From a virus, in the IMG/VR virus record IMGVR_UViG_3300001097_000021, positions 15,175 to 37,928 of that record: a stretch of 22,754 bases of DNA. The stretch is one strand, 5' to 3'. The position numbers were made by a program, and so were the translations under genes. Positions 994 to 19,001 of this stretch are shown here, piece by piece; positions within the stretch are counted from its first letter, which is position 1, and every line of letters begins with the position of its first letter. The notes under the pieces were generated by a model that was not told the DNA's origin, searched no databases, and was given only the letters and a program-made list of their open reading frames with translations.

Positions 994-1018
994 TATAAAT
1001 ATCTAATAAAACTAAAAA
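994..1018 (-). promoter_or_regulatory. Candidate phage late-type promoter or leader motif
   Basis: Minus strand reads TTTTTAGTTTTATTA followed by GATATTTATA, ending five bases before the ATG at 989. The same arrangement with the same spacing is at 3431-3455. The T-rich half overlaps the stop of the 804-aa gene. There is no TAnnTTTG here. Confidence 0.4.
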
Positions 1019-3426
1019 CATCGTACAGATATTCGAGCTATTTCTCGCAACGATGCTTTAATCATTAATTTATTTTCATTCACCCACTGTGTATTATCTT
1101 CACTTCTAATTCGGTAAACCTCTTTAGATATAGCATCATTAATATCATAAGTAACTAACATTAACGGATTTATTAACTTATTAACACCAACGTTCTGTAA
1201 TGTATTGGTGATTTGGATAGCTTCTTCGTTATCATCTTTTAAACCTAAATATTCAATAATCTCACTAGAATTTAATAAATAGACATCTCTATACATGTTA
1301 TTATTATTTAATATGTAATTAGATACGTATTCTTTAATCTTATTTATTTGAAAATCTAAGAATTTTTTTGCTGGTTCATACATATAAAGATTTTCCCATC
1401 TTGTATCTTCATCGTATACTGAATAATTAAAATAACTAATAGCTTCAATATATTTTTCGTTAATAATATTAATCATTTTATCGTTAAATTCTTTATTAAA
1501 GTCTGTTTGAGTTTTCTTACCCAAATATAATTTATAATTAAGATAATCTTTTATCGTTTTACTGTTAGTTATTTTTAAGTCCTTTAAAAATAATGAAGTG
1601 ATGTATCTAGTTAATTTATCACTACTAGTTTTTACGTTACTTAATTCAGCACTAAGAGAATTTGTTAAATCAACCAAATTAATTTCATCACCTACCCTAA
1701 GATAATAACTCAACTTTTTATGGTAATTGACAGATGCTTCTTTAACCTCACCAATAAATTCATCACTAGCACCAAACTTACTCTTAAGATCATTTAATAT
1801 ACCATCTAATGAGTCAACATTTTTATACGTTAAAGCCCCAATAGTGTATTGTATTGAATAAAAACTAATAGGTCTAGATTCATTATTATTATTATTAGTT
1901 TTTGGTTCTATACGTTTATTTGGGTCACCACTTGTAAAATCTTTTACATTATCATAAAAATTAACTTGAATACCTAGTTCTTTTGCTTTGTTAATAAGTG
2001 AATCGTTAATCTCATCACCAGCGAATACATCAATTGATATAATAAACTTACTAGCATTTGGTATTTCATTATTATCAGACACAACTCTATCCTCCATTTC
2101 ATCACCACTACCTTGTTTCATGTATTCTGGTGTTTTTGGGTATTGCCAATAATCAACTGACATGACTTTATAGTTATAACCTAATTTAGTACCATCAACT
2201 TTAATTCTAACGGAATTTTGAGTTCTAAACTTACTACCATAACCTTGGGCGGTACTTTTTGAACGACTTAAAGACATAAAATAATTTTTATTTTTAGTCT
2301 TTTCACTGGCACTTACAGCTGGTGTTAAATAAAATGAATTAGTATCTAAAATATTATCTAACCTACTTACATTTGTAAAATGATATAATATAGGTGAGGC
2401 ACCTTCTACTATTAACCCTTCACTTAGTTTTTGTTTAATATAATCAATAGTTTTAACTTCATATTGTAATTCCAATTTTCTTTCATTACTATTTTTACCT
2501 AAATTACCTACATTATTTCGTCTATTTGGTTTAACCATATATTCTTTAAATTCATTTTCATCATAATCAAAACTTTTAACTATTTTCGCTATATTTGGAT
2601 GATATTCAAATATCGCTTTAATTGCTTCATCATCTTTTTGATTATAAATGTCTTTGGCGATTTCTTCGGCTTGTTTATCATTAAATTCAATGTTACTGTA
2701 TGGTATTAAATCTTTTAATAACCATTCACCAACTGATTTAAAATTCATCACATACTTATTACATAACTCAAAAAATTTATTTGATATACCTAATTCATAA
2801 GCCTTTAATAATGCGATTAAATAAATAAAACTTTCATCATAACTTAATTTAATGTTTGGTGAAATTTCATAATCATATCTACTGGCAAATAATAATACCC
2901 TACTACTTAAACGTGAATTAATTACACTTGAATTAGGTTTACTAGGGTTAATAAATTTACTATTTGCATCACGTAAAGCTCTTCTAGTAAATATAAGTTT
3001 ATTACGATTTAATAAAACCTCATTTAACGATATATCTCTAGTATTGAAATATTCTTTAAAATTGTTTCCTTCATAATCAATTGTATCATTATCATTATTG
3101 TTTAAATTACTAGTAACGTTACTATAATTTTCATAGTCACCAATATATACAAAGTCACTATCCCTTATTACTTCATTTTTATGATGATCAACATCATTAA
3201 TCATGTCAACATATAATAGTAAAGCAAGTCTTGCAGCACCACCTTTTGCGTAAATATTTTCATCAACTAAATAAATTTCTTTATTTAACTCACTAGCTAA
3301 ATTAGTATTTAATTTAGCTAATTTTTCAATAATGTCTCTATCAATAGTGATTAATTCGTCATATGAACCCTCAAATAATAAATCATTGATCCCTTCATTT
3401 AACAGTTGTTTTATTAATCTTTTCAT
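1012..3426 (-). CDS. Large virion-type protein with ART-like domain
   Basis: 804 aa with three visible parts. (1) Residues 1-12, MKRLIKQLLNEG, resemble a capsid-targeting peptide. (2) Residues 61-96 contain GGAARLALLL and RDSDFVYIGD, recalling the GGxxR...DxDF signature of polymerase-beta-type nucleotidyltransferases; this is weak. (3) Residues 346-470 contain LYHFTN (H349), YFMSLSRS (382-389), VRIKVDG and EMEDRVV (E445). This is the order expected of an ADP-ribosyltransferase fold (H or R, then an S/T-rich strand, then a catalytic E). About 330 C-terminal residues have no recognisable domain. T4 Alt, a packaged ADP-ribosyltransferase injected with the DNA, is the obvious analogy, but that is inference. 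Stop codon is TAG. Confidence 0.7.
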   Translation of the reverse strand: MKRLIKQLLNEGINDLLFEGSYDELITIDRDIIEKLAKLNTNLASELNKEIYLVDENIYAKGGAARLALLLYVDMINDVDHHKNEVIRDSDFVYIGDYENYSNVTSNLNNNDNDTIDYEGNNFKEYFNTRDISLNEVLLNRNKLIFTRRALRDANSKFINPSKPNSSVINSRLSSRVLLFASRYDYEISPNIKLSYDESFIYLIALLKAYELGISNKFFELCNKYVMNFKSVGEWLLKDLIPYSNIEFNDKQAEEIAKDIYNQKDDEAIKAIFEYHPNIAKIVKSFDYDENEFKEYMVKPNRRNNVGNLGKNSNERKLELQYEVKTIDYIKQKLSEGLIVEGASPILYHFTNVSRLDNILDTNSFYLTPAVSASEKTKNKNYFMSLSRSKSTAQGYGSKFRTQNSVRIKVDGTKLGYNYKVMSVDYWQYPKTPEYMKQGSGDEMEDRVVSDNNEIPNASKFIISIDVFAGDEINDSLINKAKELGIQVNFYDNVKDFTSGDPNKRIEPKTNNNNNESRPISFYSIQYTIGALTYKNVDSLDGILNDLKSKFGASDEFIGEVKEASVNYHKKLSYYLRVGDEINLVDLTNSLSAELSNVKTSSDKLTRYITSLFLKDLKITNSKTIKDYLNYKLYLGKKTQTDFNKEFNDKMINIINEKYIEAISYFNYSVYDEDTRWENLYMYEPAKKFLDFQINKIKEYVSNYILNNNNMYRDVYLLNSSEIIEYLGLKDDNEEAIQITNTLQNVGVNKLINPLMLVTYDINDAISKEVYRIRSEDNTQWVNENKLMIKASLREIARISVRCF

Positions 3427-9381: not shown

Positions 9382-10698
9382 TTAATTAGAAATCTCAATC
9401 AAATGAGAAATTGTTGTTTGGTTTTCATTGTAAACGATAAATTCATTATTTCTTAAATCACCACCACCATGAGCGTAAACACTATCAAAACCTTCTTTTT
9501 TTAAATCTACATAATTTAAATCATAACAAGACGAACTATGTTTATAAATATGTTTTTGATTACCAACATGGACATCATGTAAGATTAGATAAGCTTTATT
9601 TTCAGCCCCATTAGTCCAATAAGAACCCCTAAGTGAAGTATACCCAATTGATTTTTGAGCCTTATCAGCATGGTATGTACCCCATCCGAACATTTTACCA
9701 TTTGTCCTAACACCATTAGGTCTTAACAACAACCCACACTGAATTAAATTAAAAATATTCTCATTTCTAGAACCATGAAAGTAATAGTTTTTATTTTTAA
9801 CCTTAGCGTTATCTAAATTTTTATCAAATTTGTCTTGTGTCTTGTTATTAATAACTTTATATACTTTCTTAATCTGTTTAGCATTGGTACCCATTAATCC
9901 CTTAATTAGGTCCAAAGCTTCAATATCATTTTCAACCTCAATACTTAAACCCATTTGATCAAGAATAGTAATATCATTTGACTCATCAACTACTTTACCT
10001 TCTTCAATAGCTTTTTTAGCTTTTAGTGTAGCTTCTCTTTGTTGTTTAATTAATTCAACTTGACCACCCATAGTGTCCAATGCTGATTGTTCACCGTCAA
10101 TAACTTTTTGAGCGTTATCCAATGTCTTATCATCAATAATATCTTCAATTAAATAATTTTTAACGTTATCCATTTTACGTGGAATAATTGTAAATAATTT
10201 TAATAACATATCATTAACATCTTTAACATTAACACCAATACTTATAAGTCCAGAAACACTACTAATAATTTCTTGAGCAGCTAATATTTGTTTTTCAGAT
10301 ACAGATTCTTGAGTAACTTTATAATTTTGTTGTATGGATTTATTAGCAAACGCCATTAATTCTTCAATCAATTTTTTAACAACCGAATCTTTAATCTTTT
10401 CAATTTTATTATCTTTAGGTAATACCGAATCTTCATCAATAACGTATTCAGTTAATAATTCGGTAACATCTATATAATTTTTAGCTTTCGAAAGTTTCTG
10501 TTTTAACACATAATCCCATCTATTACCGTTTTTCCACTCAACAGTTAGTTGCTTACCAACACGACCATATTCACATTTTATACGACCATCTGACATTTCC
10601 TCCATAATGTAAATTTTATTACTATTATCTGTTTTGCCATTATCTATAGATACATGAATAAGTTTAGCGTATTTTAACCCATTTTCTTTTATAATCAT
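9382..10698 (-). CDS. PARP1-like poly(ADP-ribose) polymerase (WGR-PRD-catalytic)
   Basis: 438 aa with the core architecture of DNA-dependent PARPs. Residues about 10-85 are a WGR domain (KIYIMEE..DGRIKCEYGRVGK; Tyr replaces Trp, giving YGR). Residues about 100-240 form the all-helical regulatory domain. Residues about 275-438 are the catalytic domain. The H-Y-E triad is complete: H308 in YYFHGSR, Y342 in FGWGTYHADKAQKS, E419 in NNEFIVYNENQ. E419 corresponds to PARP1 E988, needed for chain elongation, so true poly-ADP-ribosylation is plausible. There is no zinc finger or BRCT domain. The enzyme would use NAD+ to modify proteins (or nucleic acid) on sensing DNA ends. It overlaps the upstream gene by 4 bp. 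Confidence 0.93.
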   Translation of the reverse strand: MIIKENGLKYAKLIHVSIDNGKTDNSNKIYIMEEMSDGRIKCEYGRVGKQLTVEWKNGNRWDYVLKQKLSKAKNYIDVTELLTEYVIDEDSVLPKDNKIEKIKDSVVKKLIEELMAFANKSIQQNYKVTQESVSEKQILAAQEIISSVSGLISIGVNVKDVNDMLLKLFTIIPRKMDNVKNYLIEDIIDDKTLDNAQKVIDGEQSALDTMGGQVELIKQQREATLKAKKAIEEGKVVDESNDITILDQMGLSIEVENDIEALDLIKGLMGTNAKQIKKVYKVINNKTQDKFDKNLDNAKVKNKNYYFHGSRNENIFNLIQCGLLLRPNGVRTNGKMFGWGTYHADKAQKSIGYTSLRGSYWTNGAENKAYLILHDVHVGNQKHIYKHSSSCYDLNYVDLKKEGFDSVYAHGGGDLRNNEFIVYNENQTTISHLIEISN

Positions 10699-11491: not shown

Positions 11492-12547
11492 TTATAGTTT
11501 TTCTTGATCGAAATAAAAACTTTTAGCGATTTCAGAGACATACTTAGCAATATCTTTAATCTCTAAATCAGCTTCTGAAATAACATCAATCTCTTCTTTA
11601 ATGATATCATTAATAACAGCTTTAATATAAAGACCTAATTTTGATCGATCTAAATCACCACCATTTATTAAATCAAAAGTTTCAGTCAACATTTGATCTA
11701 ACCTCCAAGATGGACAAACTTTTTGTGCGACAGCAATTATTTTATCGATCTTTTCATTATCTACTTTTTTTAACACTTTAACGTTACTACTAGAATGTTT
11801 AACCCCCTTCGATTTGAAGAATACTCTAACACCATTTTCATAAATATGACTAAAAACTATACCTTCACCAATTGTGTTTGGGAAACCAAACTGTTTAGAC
11901 ACTGGACATTCTTCCTCTACCTCTAACGTCAACTCAATAATTTTATTTTGAATTAATTCTGGTCGATTAAAATCTATTTCAACTTCATATGTTTTAAAAT
12001 CTAATATGTTATATATTTTATTTTTATCATCACTTAAATTAGAATGATCAACCCAATACGCTGGGTTATCTTTTAATTCCACTTCATTTACAATAATTGG
12101 TGAAATTTTAACACCATAAATGAAACAAGATTTTTCTATATTAGTGATACCAACACCTTTTTGTATACTCGACCCAGCCCATTCTGAATAGACACAAATA
12201 GTGTTTTTATTAGTATCAATATTGTATCGATCCTTAATTTGATTAATTAAATTAATAAAAGATTCTTTTCGTGATTCAACAAAAAAAGCAAAACCAGCAT
12301 TATCTGATTGTGGTGTGATAATGTTAGAACGACTTTGAACCCATAGTCCAGATATATCGTTAAATATCACCCCAGCTGAAGTCCCATGTAACTTAACAGA
12401 ACCTTTGAAAGTTATCACTGGTTTTGGTAAAAGCCTATCATAAATAGGTTCACCTTTATCATCAATACCGATATAGTTATAGGTTCTATTTACGCTCGTA
12501 ACCACTTCTCTAAATTGAGGAGTGGATGGGTAGTTTATCATTTTCAT
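11492..12547 (-). CDS. Rnl2-like RNA ligase
   Basis: 351 aa. Motif I of the nucleotidyltransferase superfamily is FKGSVKLHGTSAG with the adenylation lysine K52 (KxHG, the variant typical of T4 Rnl2-type ligases). Motif III is around FIYGVKI, motif IV is GEGIVFSH, and motif V is FFKSKGVKH. It would seal 5'-phosphate and 3'-OH RNA ends with ATP. It follows the DNA ligase and small membrane gene on the same strand, without its own clear host-type promoter, so readthrough from 14174-14204 is likely. Rnl2 enzymes prefer duplex or nicked RNA, which would complement the Rnl1-type enzyme at 14682-17553. Confidence 0.86.
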   Translation of the reverse strand: MKMINYPSTPQFREVVTSVNRTYNYIGIDDKGEPIYDRLLPKPVITFKGSVKLHGTSAGVIFNDISGLWVQSRSNIITPQSDNAGFAFFVESRKESFINLINQIKDRYNIDTNKNTICVYSEWAGSSIQKGVGITNIEKSCFIYGVKISPIIVNEVELKDNPAYWVDHSNLSDDKNKIYNILDFKTYEVEIDFNRPELIQNKIIELTLEVEEECPVSKQFGFPNTIGEGIVFSHIYENGVRVFFKSKGVKHSSSNVKVLKKVDNEKIDKIIAVAQKVCPSWRLDQMLTETFDLINGGDLDRSKLGLYIKAVINDIIKEEIDVISEADLEIKDIAKYVSEIAKSFYFDQEKL

Positions 12548-14681: not shown

Positions 14682-15635
14682 CTAACACATTAAATATAAT
14701 TTTTTTTTATCATAATTAGATAGAAAATCATCAACTGACGCTATTTTATTTTCAGCTAAATTGAAAAACATACCAGTGAATTCTTTCACATCATTTTCAC
14801 CACAAAGTTTAAAAACCTCCATAGCGTAACGTTTCTTTTCATTAGGTGTGAGATTTTTCGGTTTTAATTTCTCAAGTTCTAACCATAAAACGTTTAATTT
14901 AACACCTAAATTATCGTAATTTTGTTTTAATCTAAATAACTCAGATTTTCTATCTGGGAAAACAGCAGCAAATTCCTCAATTTCGTTACTCACGATAATT
15001 CCCATTATATTATATTCTGCTGACTTACCCTTAAGTCCATGTACATTTACATATGCTGGGTTTTTAACTTTAACCCTATTGTGATTTGCATCAACCACAA
15101 CATAACCCTCTGAAGACCAAGGCATGTTATCGAATGTTTTAATTAAATGTCCAATATTCTTTGCGTTTAAATCAAATGTTTGGACTACTGGTAAATGTAA
15201 CACCTTACCACACTCGATTAATTCGTCACGTGTAGCCTCTTTAAGTGTATCAATTTTCCTAGCAGTTAAAAGAGTTACTGACGATACACTGTGAGGTTTA
15301 ACAACAATATTATATGGTGTTGTTAACTCAAATACATAACAACTTGTTTTATCTAACCAAGAAATTCTAAATGTAGGGTATTTATCAGCAATTGTATCCC
15401 AAAACAAATTACTAAATGTTGTATTGTCTTTATTATTAACCATACCTTCAGCCTCAGCTGTACCAGTAGTCCCAGCAAACCACTTATTTAAGTGCCAATC
15501 CCAATAAACTTGAATCATAGAGTTATGAACTAATATACCATTCGCAAAGAAATTATTAGTTTCCTTAGTTTGAATATCATATCGCTTAGAGTGTGACTCT
15601 ATTTCTTTAATCTGTTTTATTTTAACTATTTTCAT
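14682..15635 (-). CDS. rnlA: Split-intein C-half fused to C-terminal part of Rnl1-type RNA ligase
   Basis: 317 aa. Residues 1-38 are a C-intein: RYDIQTKETNNFFANG then ILVHN (H37, N38), with Ser39 as the +1 splice residue. Residues 39-317 are the C-extein, the larger part of a T4 Rnl1-type ligase. It opens with SMIQVYW, which completes motif I. CYVFELTTPYNIVV (residues 99-112) matches T4 FEF.AP.N.IV. SSEGYVVV (174-181) is motif IV and RVKVKN (187-192) is motif V. Alone it lacks the catalytic lysine. After trans-splicing with the product of 16966-17553 it would give a 375-residue ligase (T4 Rnl1: 374) that seals broken tRNA. No promoter is visible directly upstream. Confidence 0.95.
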   Translation of the reverse strand: MKIVKIKQIKEIESHSKRYDIQTKETNNFFANGILVHNSMIQVYWDWHLNKWFAGTTGTAEAEGMVNNKDNTTFSNLFWDTIADKYPTFRISWLDKTSCYVFELTTPYNIVVKPHSVSSVTLLTARKIDTLKEATRDELIECGKVLHLPVVQTFDLNAKNIGHLIKTFDNMPWSSEGYVVVDANHNRVKVKNPAYVNVHGLKGKSAEYNIMGIIVSNEIEEFAAVFPDRKSELFRLKQNYDNLGVKLNVLWLELEKLKPKNLTPNEKKRYAMEVFKLCGENDVKEFTGMFFNLAENKIASVDDFLSNYDKKKLYLMC

Positions 15636-15790
15636 GATTTAATTTTAATTTTAACCCCAACACCGATAATATTATCATCATCAAATTTATCACCAAATAA
15701 CTCCACTAAATTAACTTCAACATAGTTATCATCTGTTGGTAATATTGAGTTATTAAATTGATTAAATATGTAATTTGACTTTTTTATAAT
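15632..15790 (-). pseudogene. ATG-less open frame between endonuclease and ligase C-half
   Basis: From the codon after a TGA (15791-15793) the frame is open for 52 codons and ends in TGA overlapping the ATG of the C-half gene (ATGA). No ATG or TTG starts it; ATT or an internal GTG are the only options. The translated text looks protein-like (YVEVNLVELFGDK, then IIGVGVKIKIK). It may be the 3' remnant of a gene cut by arrival of the endonuclease, or a translated spacer that couples ribosomes to the C-half. No homology recognised. Confidence 0.35.
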
Positions 15791-16902
15791 TCACTTATTT
15801 TTTCTATTATAAATAACTCTAATTCTATATCGTTTAATGGTCTAATATCCATTTCCCATAAAGGTAATACTTTAAATCCGTTTTTCAAAGCAATATTTAA
15901 CTTTTTTTCATCTTTCCCCCACAACGATTCAGCGATAACTTCTTTATTAGGGAATGGTAATATATCACTACCCTTATATTTCCTTGGGTTAGCATGCCAG
16001 AAATCACCGTTAACTTCTATTAATATATTAGTATTATCAATCTTAATATCATATGTTCGATGGTTTATTGGGTATTGTGGCGTGAATGATATATTCAACC
16101 TAGTTAATATATCTCTAACCCTAATCTCTAATTTTGATATGAAATTTTTATGTAACCTAACCATTCTTTTATTAAATTCATCATCAGATAAGTTAGACCA
16201 CATTTTTTTTAACCCATTACTAATATTCCTACCATTAATAAATATTTCCTCATCAGACCAATTTGATTTAGTCTCCATCATTTTTTTGATAACATTAGAC
16301 TTATGCTCATCAGACCAATTTGATTTAGTTAACTTATGTTTTTTGATTATTATATTTTTTTCAGTGTCAGTTTTGTTGGTCCAAGCCTCACGTATTTTAT
16401 CTGGGTTTGTTAATCGTTTAGTACCATATTTATTAATCATTAAGTCGTTAAGCGATTCTTTAAATTCATCAGTCTTGAAAATATTATCGACACCGTAGTT
16501 CTCAATAAATGTTTCTTTTTTCTTTTCTTTTATTTTGTCACATTTTGAAACATTCGAAACACCATATTTAGCCACACATGTTTTTTTATATTTATCTCTA
16601 ACTGACTTCTGCTTAGTCGCTTCACTTATTGATTTTAATTTAACACCATTGAGTCTAAATACTAATGATAAACTTTTATGTGGTATGTTATACTCATTAA
16701 CTAATGTCAATACCGTGCCATCATTTTCATACTTATGTATTAATTCACTAACTAACTCATCGGTTAGGTTAAATCTACTCTTAAGTACAAATAACTCCAT
16801 TTCATCACTATTCTTGAATTCAACTAAGTGTGTATTTCTAACATGTAATTTAAACATTTTATTATTAAACTCACCACCACACTTTTCACATTTTACTGTC
16901 AT
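15784..16902 (-). CDS. VSR-like homing endonuclease nested in the fractured ligase gene
   Basis: 372 aa. The N-terminus holds a C2H2-type zinc finger (C5, C8, H20, H25). The middle has three KYGV/NYGVDN-type repeats (residues about 108-160), a DNA-binding region common in phage homing enzymes, and two further copies of SNWSDE. The C-terminal third has the VSR/EDxHD nuclease core: SFTPQYPINHRTYDIKID, then ILIEVNGDFWHANP, then KKLNIALKNGFKVLPLWE. It would cut ligase alleles that lack the insertion and copy this region by recombination. It lies on the same strand between the two split-intein halves, exactly the arrangement called fractured genes. Confidence 0.9.
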   Translation of the reverse strand: MTVKCEKCGGEFNNKMFKLHVRNTHLVEFKNSDEMELFVLKSRFNLTDELVSELIHKYENDGTVLTLVNEYNIPHKSLSLVFRLNGVKLKSISEATKQKSVRDKYKKTCVAKYGVSNVSKCDKIKEKKKETFIENYGVDNIFKTDEFKESLNDLMINKYGTKRLTNPDKIREAWTNKTDTEKNIIIKKHKLTKSNWSDEHKSNVIKKMMETKSNWSDEEIFINGRNISNGLKKMWSNLSDDEFNKRMVRLHKNFISKLEIRVRDILTRLNISFTPQYPINHRTYDIKIDNTNILIEVNGDFWHANPRKYKGSDILPFPNKEVIAESLWGKDEKKLNIALKNGFKVLPLWEMDIRPLNDIELELFIIEKISEL

Positions 16903-16965
16903 AACTAATATCTTTAATAATAAATATCAGTTACTACTGGAAAAGTTAGATGAACGTCAAGTTTT

Positions 16966-17553
16966 TTAAGTAATTAATAAAAATTCATCATCCTCAGTCA
17001 ACTCATCAACTCTACGGTAACACTCTAAATTTGGTAACCAAACTTTATGGTTGGCAGTTAATTTAACGGTGGTCCCATTCTCTAATTCAATTTCAAACCA
17101 ATTGTTAATGTTCTTCTTGACTGAATAACCAACAATCTCATCATATACCGATTCATTGATTTCTAAATCAAATGATAAGACTTTACCAGAGTACTTAGTA
17201 TCACATATCTCACGAATAGTCATTTTACCATCCTCTGTTATAAGAATAGTATCCTCATGACAACACCCGTCCATTTTTTCTAATACATGTGCGGTACCCC
17301 AATCAATAGTTGCAGCGTTACCCTCGCCATAATTAAAAAATTTACGAAATGATAGACTAATTACTTTCCAAGTATCTTTTTCAAGTATAATACCACGGCA
17401 ATCTTGCATCTCTGGTAACCCCATTAGTGTTGGGGAGGATAATTGATCATACTTTAACAGAATTTTATGTCCGTAATCACGGGTTTTTAATTTAAAATCA
17501 ATTACGGTTTTATCTAACCCATGTTTTTTTAAGTAAACTTGTATAGCTAACAT
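16966..17553 (-). CDS. rnlA: N-terminal part of Rnl1-type RNA ligase fused to split-intein N-half
   Basis: 195 aa. Residues 1-96 are the N-extein: MQDCRGIILEKD (matching T4 LECRGIMFEMD), FRKFFNYGEGN, and EKMDG with the adenylation lysine K93 (T4 K99). Residues 97-195 are the N-intein. Block A is CCHEDTILI (Cys97 as first residue, with D and T at intein positions 5 and 6). Block B contains T166-A-N-H169 (TxxH). It ends DDEFLLIT. There is no endonuclease domain within the intein. The break falls between G96 and the Ser of the C-half, inside KxDGS. A canonical host-type promoter precedes it. The protein is inactive as a ligase until spliced. Confidence 0.95.
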   Translation of the reverse strand: MLAIQVYLKKHGLDKTVIDFKLKTRDYGHKILLKYDQLSSPTLMGLPEMQDCRGIILEKDTWKVISLSFRKFFNYGEGNAATIDWGTAHVLEKMDGCCHEDTILITEDGKMTIREICDTKYSGKVLSFDLEINESVYDEIVGYSVKKNINNWFEIELENGTTVKLTANHKVWLPNLECYRRVDELTEDDEFLLIT

Positions 17554-17606: not shown

Positions 17607-19001
17607 TTACATTTTTTTTACATATGAACCATCAGAATGATAATAAATCTTAGGTCCACTATAGTTTTCATCAACCTCTTGACCCAAAATATTTATTATC
17701 TTAAGTATTTTAACTTCTTTTATTTCACTATTTCTATAAACACCAACCAAATCAGTAAATTCATATTTACCGTCAAAATCAGTTTGTTTTAATCGATAAT
17801 AAGTTATATCCCAAGGTTTATATTCTTCTAAATGATAATTAATGGTTTGTTGTGATGTACCAGCTCCATTAATTATTGAAACCACTTCAAAATCTTCACC
17901 ATTATTGGTTTTCTCTAAGGTAAAATAATCATTATTTAATTCAGAAGCTGTAACCCACTCAATAAGGTTAGCGTTAGATCCAACTTTACCAGTAAACGAA
18001 AGAAGTTCTATTGGTAGTGAAAGACCACATACAATACCTGGAGGGGTTATTGTAATGCTAAAACCACAACCAGTACCTCTAACACCATCTAAACCTAAAA
18101 AATATTTATCCGTTGTTGAGGAAACAACAACGGATAAATATTTTGTTATCCAGTTTTTACCTTTCCCATACATTAATACCGTATTTAGATTATTAGTAGA
18201 ACCTTTAAATAAAGCGTACTGAAACACAAATAGTGGTGTTTTAACACCACCATTTGGGGGGTAACATTTAGATGGTGTTATAGAGATAACCCAAGTACCT
18301 GTAATTGTTGGATTGAACTTATACCAAATATCATTTTCAATTGAATAACTAACATCACCACCATTATTATTATATGGTACACTAGCACCAGAACTAGAGT
18401 TATTACAATCTAAATCGTTATAAAAAGAGATAACTGTGTTTGTTGGTGGTCCAGAATTACCATTATAACCAACACAATTTGTTGAATTACCAGCGTCATA
18501 ATTGTTGGATGTAAAACTACTAACACAATTATCTATTAGTAATGGTGTTAGTAATACATCGTTACTTTGTTTTGGGTAACTATTCCAACCAATAGTTATT
18601 TTTGAAGAAGATTTATCAGTTAAATCACATGTATCAGCTGGACAATATAATAAATATAAATATCCATTACCAGATGTTGAAGACATGATACAACCTAAGG
18701 CTGAAGTTGGCGCCCAAACACCTAAAAGTGTTTCTGGTACACCATTATTATTTTGATCCTCATAAATACGTACACTATCAGATTTATTGTTACCACCACC
18801 ACAAGTAGTAACTAAATTATTTATTTCCAAACAAACCTCAATTCGTTTAGTTCCGTTACCTATTTTAACTGTGTTAGTTGAAAGTAACGAACAATCTGTT
18901 GATGAAGGACGATTCAAAATATAACCAGTACCAGATGGTGCTACTTGTAGTAAAACATTAAATTTTAATGCGATAAATAGGGTAAATAATATTAGCTTCA
19001 T
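17607..19001 (-). CDS. Secreted T9SS-cargo-like protein, 464 aa
   Basis: Residues 1-20 (MKLILFTLFIALKFNVLLQV) are a signal peptide. The middle is Ser/Thr/Asn/Gly-rich with many paired Cys and two beta-sandwich-like parts, one with GGDVSYSIENDIWYKF and VISITPSKC. Residues about 345-435 (LPIELLSFTGKVGSNANLIEWVT, then YYRLKQTDFDGKYEF) are the fibronectin-like region that precedes type IX sorting domains in Bacteroidota. The end (INILGQEVDENYSG, then IYYHSDGSYVKKM) looks like a short sorting domain. It would be exported and possibly attached to the cell surface of the host. This is unexpected in a phage and suggests host origin. It may be a late gene (ATATTTATA motif upstream). Confidence 0.82.
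   Translation of the reverse strand: MKLILFTLFIALKFNVLLQVAPSGTGYILNRPSSTDCSLLSTNTVKIGNGTKRIEVCLEINNLVTTCGGGNNKSDSVRIYEDQNNNGVPETLLGVWAPTSALGCIMSSTSGNGYLYLLYCPADTCDLTDKSSSKITIGWNSYPKQSNDVLLTPLLIDNCVSSFTSNNYDAGNSTNCVGYNGNSGPPTNTVISFYNDLDCNNSSSGASVPYNNNGGDVSYSIENDIWYKFNPTITGTWVISITPSKCYPPNGGVKTPLFVFQYALFKGSTNNLNTVLMYGKGKNWITKYLSVVVSSTTDKYFLGLDGVRGTGCGFSITITPPGIVCGLSLPIELLSFTGKVGSNANLIEWVTASELNNDYFTLEKTNNGEDFEVVSIINGAGTSQQTINYHLEEYKPWDITYYRLKQTDFDGKYEFTDLVGVYRNSEIKEVKILKIINILGQEVDENYSGPKIYYHSDGSYVKKM
18099..18144. repeat. Perfect 20-bp inverted repeat inside the secreted-protein gene
   Basis: Arms 18099-18118 and 18125-18144 are exact complements with a six-base centre. They encode the segment TKYLSVVVSSTTDKYF. 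Such a long, perfect hairpin is not required by the protein. Confidence 0.85.

Follow-up and report, generated by a model that had tools for sequence, protein, structure and literature searches.

How an RNA ligase encoded in two pieces, and broken within its own active-site motif, could still yield an enzyme, and how the gene came to be parted by a nuclease gene, are the questions raised by one locus in a DNA window of 22,754 nucleotides (the window being the whole stretch analysed here). The window is taken from IMG/VR record IMGVR_UViG_3300001097_000021, a 37.9-kb fragment of an uncultured phage. The locus consists of three open reading frames (ORFs), all on the minus strand: 17553..16966, carrying the N-terminal half of the ligase; 16902..15784, encoding an endonuclease; and 15635..14682, carrying the C-terminal half. 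An earlier reading made from the sequence alone (here the sequence-only reading) had described it as a T4 Rnl1-type ligase gene fractured by a split intein with a Vsr-like endonuclease gene nested between the halves, and the three ORFs were found where it had placed them. The locus is very probably a mobile fractured-gene element, in which a trans-splicing split intein restores the ligase and the endonuclease serves as mobility factor. The anatomy, the catalytic residues, the exact empty sites in relatives, the patchy distribution, the purifying selection on both intein halves and the decay series of the endonuclease are all matters of observation.

The divided ligase and its intein halves

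The N-precursor ORF (16966..17553, minus strand) encodes 195 amino acids, an Rnl1 N-extein followed by an N-intein. The N-extein (17266..17553, minus strand) supplies ligase residues 1-96 and ends with motif I, K93-M-D-G96, whose adenylylation lysine, K93, is encoded at 17275-17277 on the minus strand. The C-precursor ORF (14682..15635, minus strand; 317 amino acids) carries a C-intein and then the Rnl1 C-extein (14685..15521, minus strand), which starts with the +1 residue Ser39 (15519-15521) and contains motifs III (FEL), IV (EGYV) and V (VKVKNP). The first protein reads HVLEKMDG up to the junction, continues directly with CCHEDTILITEDG and later NGTTVKLTANHKVW, and ends in DDEFLLIT before the stop codon; the second reads MKIVKIKQIKEIESHSKRYDIQTKETNNFFANGILVHN up to the junction, where SMIQVYWDWHL begins. 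Between the endonuclease and the C-half, window positions 15636-15783 hold an open frame without a start codon, which ends in LPTDDNYVEVNLVELFGDKFDDDNIIGVGVKIKIKS and whose stop overlaps the ATG of the C-half.

Both halves match the RNA ligase family phrog_562 (4e-14 for the N-half, 3e-22 for the C-half). The joined ligase pieces match T4 Rnl1 (2C5U) at 3e-10, in an alignment that runs from residue 45 on, and 5TT6 was also matched. In the alignment with 2C5U the ligase junction KMDG/S falls on KEDG/S of the T4 enzyme, whose gene is uninterrupted. The predicted spliced product, 375 amino acids long with the junction KMDG/S, matches T4 RNA ligase 1 over most of its length, and motif I in the form KxDG is followed by motifs III, IV and V in the Rnl1 order, so that the assignment of the host gene to the T4 Rnl1 type holds. 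The fracture point lies inside motif I, between G and S and four residues at most from the nucleophile lysine. The catalytic motifs are thereby divided, the N-protein having K93 and the C-protein motifs III, IV and V, and because the adenylylating lysine and the remaining motifs are on separate proteins, the ligase would be active only after trans-splicing.

The N-intein (16969..17265, minus strand) comprises 99 amino acids, with C97 first, block A CCHEDT and block B TANH, and matches TIGR01445 (intein_Nterm) over residues 97-171 with an E value of 5e-7. The C-intein (15522..15635, minus strand) comprises 38, with block F RYDIQT..NFFANG and block G ILVHN, and matches TIGR01443 (intein_Cterm) over residues 19-39 with an E value of 1e-6. 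Both of these matches are over the curated cut-off, and the Pfam family Intein_splicing (PF14890) also matches both halves (1e-7 for the N-half, 3e-6 for the C-half). Searches with intein profiles were the check that the sequence-only reading had proposed for its split intein, with failure of the two halves to match Hint-domain profiles as the ground for giving it up; both halves match. Joined, the intein pieces have their best PDB match, and hence their best solved relative, in the NrdJ-1 split intein (8UBS; E 3e-12 over 129 amino acids), which is inserted in ribonucleotide reductase, while the gp41-1 and DnaE inteins are weaker matches. In the six copies compared, residues C1, T70, N72 and H73 of the N-intein are invariant, and the class 1 Hint residues are all present and likewise invariant (Cys1, the TxxH of block B, the terminal HN and the +1 Ser). 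The fractured gene would be expressed as two separate precursor proteins, whose complementary intein halves would associate; C97 would then attack first, Ser39 would accept the N-extein and Asn38 of the C-intein would cyclise, to leave a ligase of full length with motif I whole (K93-M-D-G/S).

Recurrence, empty sites and selection

A search of IMG/VR by means of the C-half turned up 52 loci (contigs and loci are designated by L numbers below), of which 43 have the two extein ends abutting. The occupied set was widened by an N-intein scan, which added the L056-L059 group, and by a junction pattern search, which added L085, L086 and L087; where viral contigs were scanned with intein and endonuclease profiles, the counts of relatives are lower bounds. 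With the window itself counted, at least 13 contigs from about 8 ligase lineages have the Rnl1 fracture layout, a recurrence that bears out its description as a fractured gene. The stop region of the N-ORF and the start of the C-ORF are at the same positions as in the window in 12 further contigs, and in L002, L003, L004, L005 and L041 the extein ends are separated by 556-1700 bases, the intein halves being present. At least 43 uninterrupted relatives have empty sites, in which N-extein residue 96 abuts C-extein residue 1 with a gap of 0. The exteins rejoin without a residue gained or lost, both in 43 empty sites and in the alignment to T4 Rnl1, which upholds the intein boundaries predicted at residues 97 and 38 of the two products and the predicted spliced length of about 375 residues. 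In one near pair, L004 (occupied) and L038 (empty), the flanks are 85-87% identical over 486 and 1238 bases and the alignment breaks exactly at GGT/TCT versus GGT/ACT. With this pair an assembly artefact is ruled out, and the boundaries are set without recourse to motifs; more generally, chance or assembly error is excluded because the layout recurs in the 12 further contigs and the uninterrupted relatives exist. An assembly join, which the sequence-only reading had named as something that could undo it, is likewise contradicted by the relatives with the same layout and by the empty sites. A scan of genome contigs with the C-half gave no relative, and in phage collection records the closest intein is only 27-31% identical and the ligase at most 34%.

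Both intein halves are under strong purifying selection, with dN/dS of about 0.03-0.19 where dS was computable (dS 0.5 to above 1); the exteins have values of about 0.1-0.25 in most pairs, with higher ones, 0.4-0.5, for the C-extein compared with that of L056. As strong constraint counts as evidence of function, the split intein appears to be functional. On the ligase tree occupancy is patchy, with at least 6 changes (5-6 in the bootstrap), so the element has been gained and/or lost several times. In five lineages the N-intein is 82-90% identical in amino acids to that of the window, with C-exteins 47-58% identical. To take the high intein identity as a sign of recent transfer was considered and rejected, much of it being constraint as judged by dN/dS; more weight is given to the tree and to the near pair L004/L038. 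The dS of the N-intein is below that of the C-extein in most pairs for which both were computed, which fits more recent shared descent, though the values are near saturation.

The +1 residue is Ser in all occupied Rnl1 genes, and in 40 distinct empty ones it is Thr in 26 and Ser in 14. Fisher's test gives p = 2e-4 for the association between Ser and occupancy with kinship disregarded; of the 5 independent pairs on the tree, 2-4 support it and none contradicts it, too few for significance. L004, with Ser at +1, is nested among empty relatives with Thr, and the simplest reading is that the nucleophile Ser came with the element or was selected along with it.

The endonuclease, its presumed homing and the alternatives

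The central ORF (15784..16902, minus strand) encodes a 372-amino acid homing endonuclease of the Vsr/EDxHD type. It matches phrog_3339 (homing endonuclease, 3e-17) and TIGR00632 (vsr, 1e-5), and a profile built from four endonuclease homologues finds I-Bth0305I (3R3P) first in the PDB and Vsr next, in agreement with its having been called Vsr-like. Its AlphaFold model (mean pLDDT 62, of moderate confidence) gives 3R3P with E 6e-4 and 1VSR with 2e-3 in Foldseek. The catalytic domain, placed by profile and fold matches at about residues 256-352 (15847..16137, minus strand), has E259, D285, E296, H303 and D331 invariant among the homologues, and so combines a Vsr-like catalytic fold, as far as a model of moderate confidence can be read, with the conserved E, D, H and D of the EDxHD family. 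At the N-terminus lies a C2H2-type zinc-finger-like motif (16828..16902, minus strand; C5, C8, H20 and H25), which was assigned by inspection and is invariant in four homologues, and residues 96-176 form a NUMOD-like, putatively DNA-binding DUF7487 region (16375..16617, minus strand; PF24308, 1.6e-10). The EDxHD family has I-Bth0305I as its type enzyme, in which the catalytic core is tethered to modular DNA-binding parts (PMC3943268). For the catalytic domain I-Bth0305I comes first both by profile and by fold, but it is a group I intron enzyme, whereas the window endonuclease is a free ORF within a fracture and has the zinc-finger-like N-terminus and DUF7487.

The window, L002, L004 and L041 have an uninterrupted endonuclease frame and L003 a frameshifted one; in the L056 group the endonuclease is a shortened remnant in which the catalytic His has become Tyr, and it is absent in L005 and L085. 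About 70 additional residues (roughly 166-234) are found in the window endonuclease and in none of L002, L004 and L041; the L056 remnant, 83.7% identical to the window enzyme over residues 221-306, is of the longer kind. A homing cycle is expected to pass through just such states (intact, broken, absent). In such a cycle the endonuclease would cut element-free ligase genes near motif I, with cleavage of the empty allele predicted to fall at the insertion site, and repair would copy the whole block, intein halves and endonuclease together, into the cut allele.

Three further arrangements were seen at related loci. In L041 (4683-4994) another unknown ORF stands beside the endonuclease inside the fracture, so that the gap can hold more genes. 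Directly upstream of the ligase N-half, L056 (4145-4720) and L005 (2653-2763) have the end of a NUMOD3-rich ORF, apparently a second, unrelated homing endonuclease gene. In L036 (5881-7003) an intact Rnl1 precedes a free-standing Vsr-like endonuclease, after which the 3' end of the ligase occurs a second time, a duplication such as would be left by a downstream homing or recombination event.

Some points weigh against a mobile, trans-splicing element. Splicing and cleavage are both predictions from sequence. The AlphaFold model of the N-half alone is poor (pLDDT 50), and the association of Ser with occupancy loses its significance once kinship is handled. The high intein identity partly reflects strong constraint, intein dS being often near 1, so that lateral transfer is argued chiefly from the patchy tree and from the position of L004 amid empty relatives.

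Among other explanations, the one that survives best is that the split intein is kept as a regulator of ligase maturation, through conditional trans-splicing, and not as a parasite. The retention of a split intein with its catalytic residues where the endonuclease is absent (L005, L085) or dead (the L056 group) speaks for it, but such retention is expected anyway, precise loss being rare; moreover the element is missing from most relatives and no regulatory signal was found, and we think this explanation improbable. It is more improbable still that the ligase is a non-covalent two-subunit enzyme with the intein remnants as mere docking domains. Docking needs no Cys1, Asn or +1 Ser, and yet the catalytic intein residues (C1, T-x-N-H, H-N, +1 Ser) are all invariant, and the cut separates G from S at no more than four residues from the nucleophile lysine. 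This holds even though bare gene-in-pieces enzymes are known, such as the T-even ribonucleotide reductase split by mobE (cited in PMC3322345), and though the RtcB RNA ligase of L068 (3193-4797) lies in two ORFs, split by a kindred Vsr-like endonuclease with no intein seen. A dead gene or an artefact of sequencing or assembly, be it a cis-intein that frameshifts have disrupted or a chimeric join, is very unlikely indeed: frameshifts, real or apparent, do occur in L003, in the N-extein as well as the endonuclease, but stop and start positions are alike in about 8 lineages from many metagenomes, the splice residues are invariant, and the dN/dS of inteins and of most extein pairs is low, as given above.

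A second fractured ligase, the gene neighbourhood and known systems

The Rnl2-type ligase gene of the window (11492..12547) is intact, with Thr at +1. In certain relatives of this phage Rnl2 is itself fractured, with a split intein of another kind at the equivalent point of motif I (KLHG/S), which the sequence-only reading had missed; this is so in L086 (6255-8525, minus strand), L106 (2841-5153) and L107 (3597-5915), the latter two having an intact Rnl1. The order in L086 is the N-part up to KLHG, then CFDKNSLVTL, a different Vsr-like endonuclease, and DILVHN/SNAG. Both Rnl1 and Rnl2 are fractured in four contigs (L057/L091, L058/L090, L059/L093 and L086). Among the Rnl2 genes examined, the +1 residue is Thr in 41 distinct empty loci as well as in the window, and Ser in all fractured ones. 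The Rnl1 and Rnl2 inteins are about 30% (N) and 45% (C) identical, and in a small intein tree the Rnl1 intein groups with that of L066, apart from the Rnl2 inteins; on this thin base (eight sequences, 140 columns) the entries into motif I of Rnl1 and of Rnl2 look independent. The L066 split intein, 39% (N) and 55% (C) identical to the Rnl1 intein, belongs to a gene of the OB-fold plus RNA_ligase type (Pfam; L066, 3243-5741) fractured about 20 residues before KMDG. Other genes fractured with split inteins and kindred endonucleases were a ribonucleotide reductase with two splits (L063), DnaE (L064) and an IMPDH/GMP reductase (L069). As a tentative suggestion, more doubtful than not, motif I of phage RNA ligases may be a recurrent target, two different split inteins, each with a Vsr-like endonuclease, having separately entered the K-x-x-G/S of Rnl1 and Rnl2; the ATP-grasp RNA-repair ligases of the double carriers would then depend on two parallel trans-splicing reactions, which could gate tRNA repair during infection.

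Around the fractured ligase are an ATP-dependent DNA ligase, Rnl2, RlaP, a PARP-domain protein, a kinase with a phosphodiesterase-like part and five tRNA genes. This is an RNA-repair set, of a kind known from large phages (PMC7824862). The sequence-only reading had taken the phage for one of Bacteroidota. The closest cultured relatives of its DNA ligase (51%) are in Cellulophaga phages, which supports that placement indirectly and makes a Bacteroidota host likely. The neighbouring ORF 19001..17607 (window 17607-19001), also found in L085, has a C-terminus resembling a T9SS sorting tail (PIELLSF, then YYRLKQTDFDGKYEF); searched against protein families, it gave no T9SS or other family match. 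At 1012-3426 and 9382-10698 are encoded the PARP-domain protein (8e-22) and a large protein that matches Tox-ART-HYD1 weakly. In the same record but outside the window, a nicotinamide phosphoribosyltransferase-like gene adjoins a NUDIX protein gene (L072, 160-1908 and 1960-2937), a pair resembling a phage NAD salvage pair.

Dassa et al. 2009 reportedly described fractured genes of this kind, in which split inteins go with a Vsr-like endonuclease, from a phage-like metagenomic source, with helicase gp41, ribonucleotide reductases, IMPDH and polymerase-type genes as hosts. The present locus shares with them the separate N- and C-precursor genes, a split intein of about 100 + 40 amino acids and a Vsr/EDxHD gene in between; it differs in that the host gene is an RNA ligase. 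It is thus the same arrangement with a new host gene. In the cultured Pseudomonas phage MIJ3, PolB has a split intein with an HNH endonuclease between the halves and block G ILVHNS (PMC6892783), which again is a fractured gene with an endonuclease between the halves, but with a DNA polymerase as host and an endonuclease of the HNH type. Campylobacter phage IBB_35 has inteins and split genes, and its RNA ligase 1 gene is listed with no intein mentioned. The open literature (most subscription journals lying outside it) yielded no account of a split intein in the gene for Rnl1 or Rnl2, in agreement with the view that the case is not a described one.

With this locus RNA ligases, widely used as reagents and belonging to an enzyme class of phage counter-defence, join the genes that harbour split inteins; to a specialist the surprise would be that two RNA ligases are both broken at one and the same active-site motif. 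A cut within the active site offers an RNA ligase that is off until spliced, and where one phage has intein pairs in both Rnl1 and Rnl2, these present themselves as candidate split inteins that are mutually orthogonal. The difference between Thr and Ser at +1, seen with both host genes, suggests in a way open to test that the element brings its splicing nucleophile along. Finally, the natural series within one gene, from empty site through full element and broken endonuclease to endonuclease lost, allows the homing cycle of fractured genes to be put to the test.
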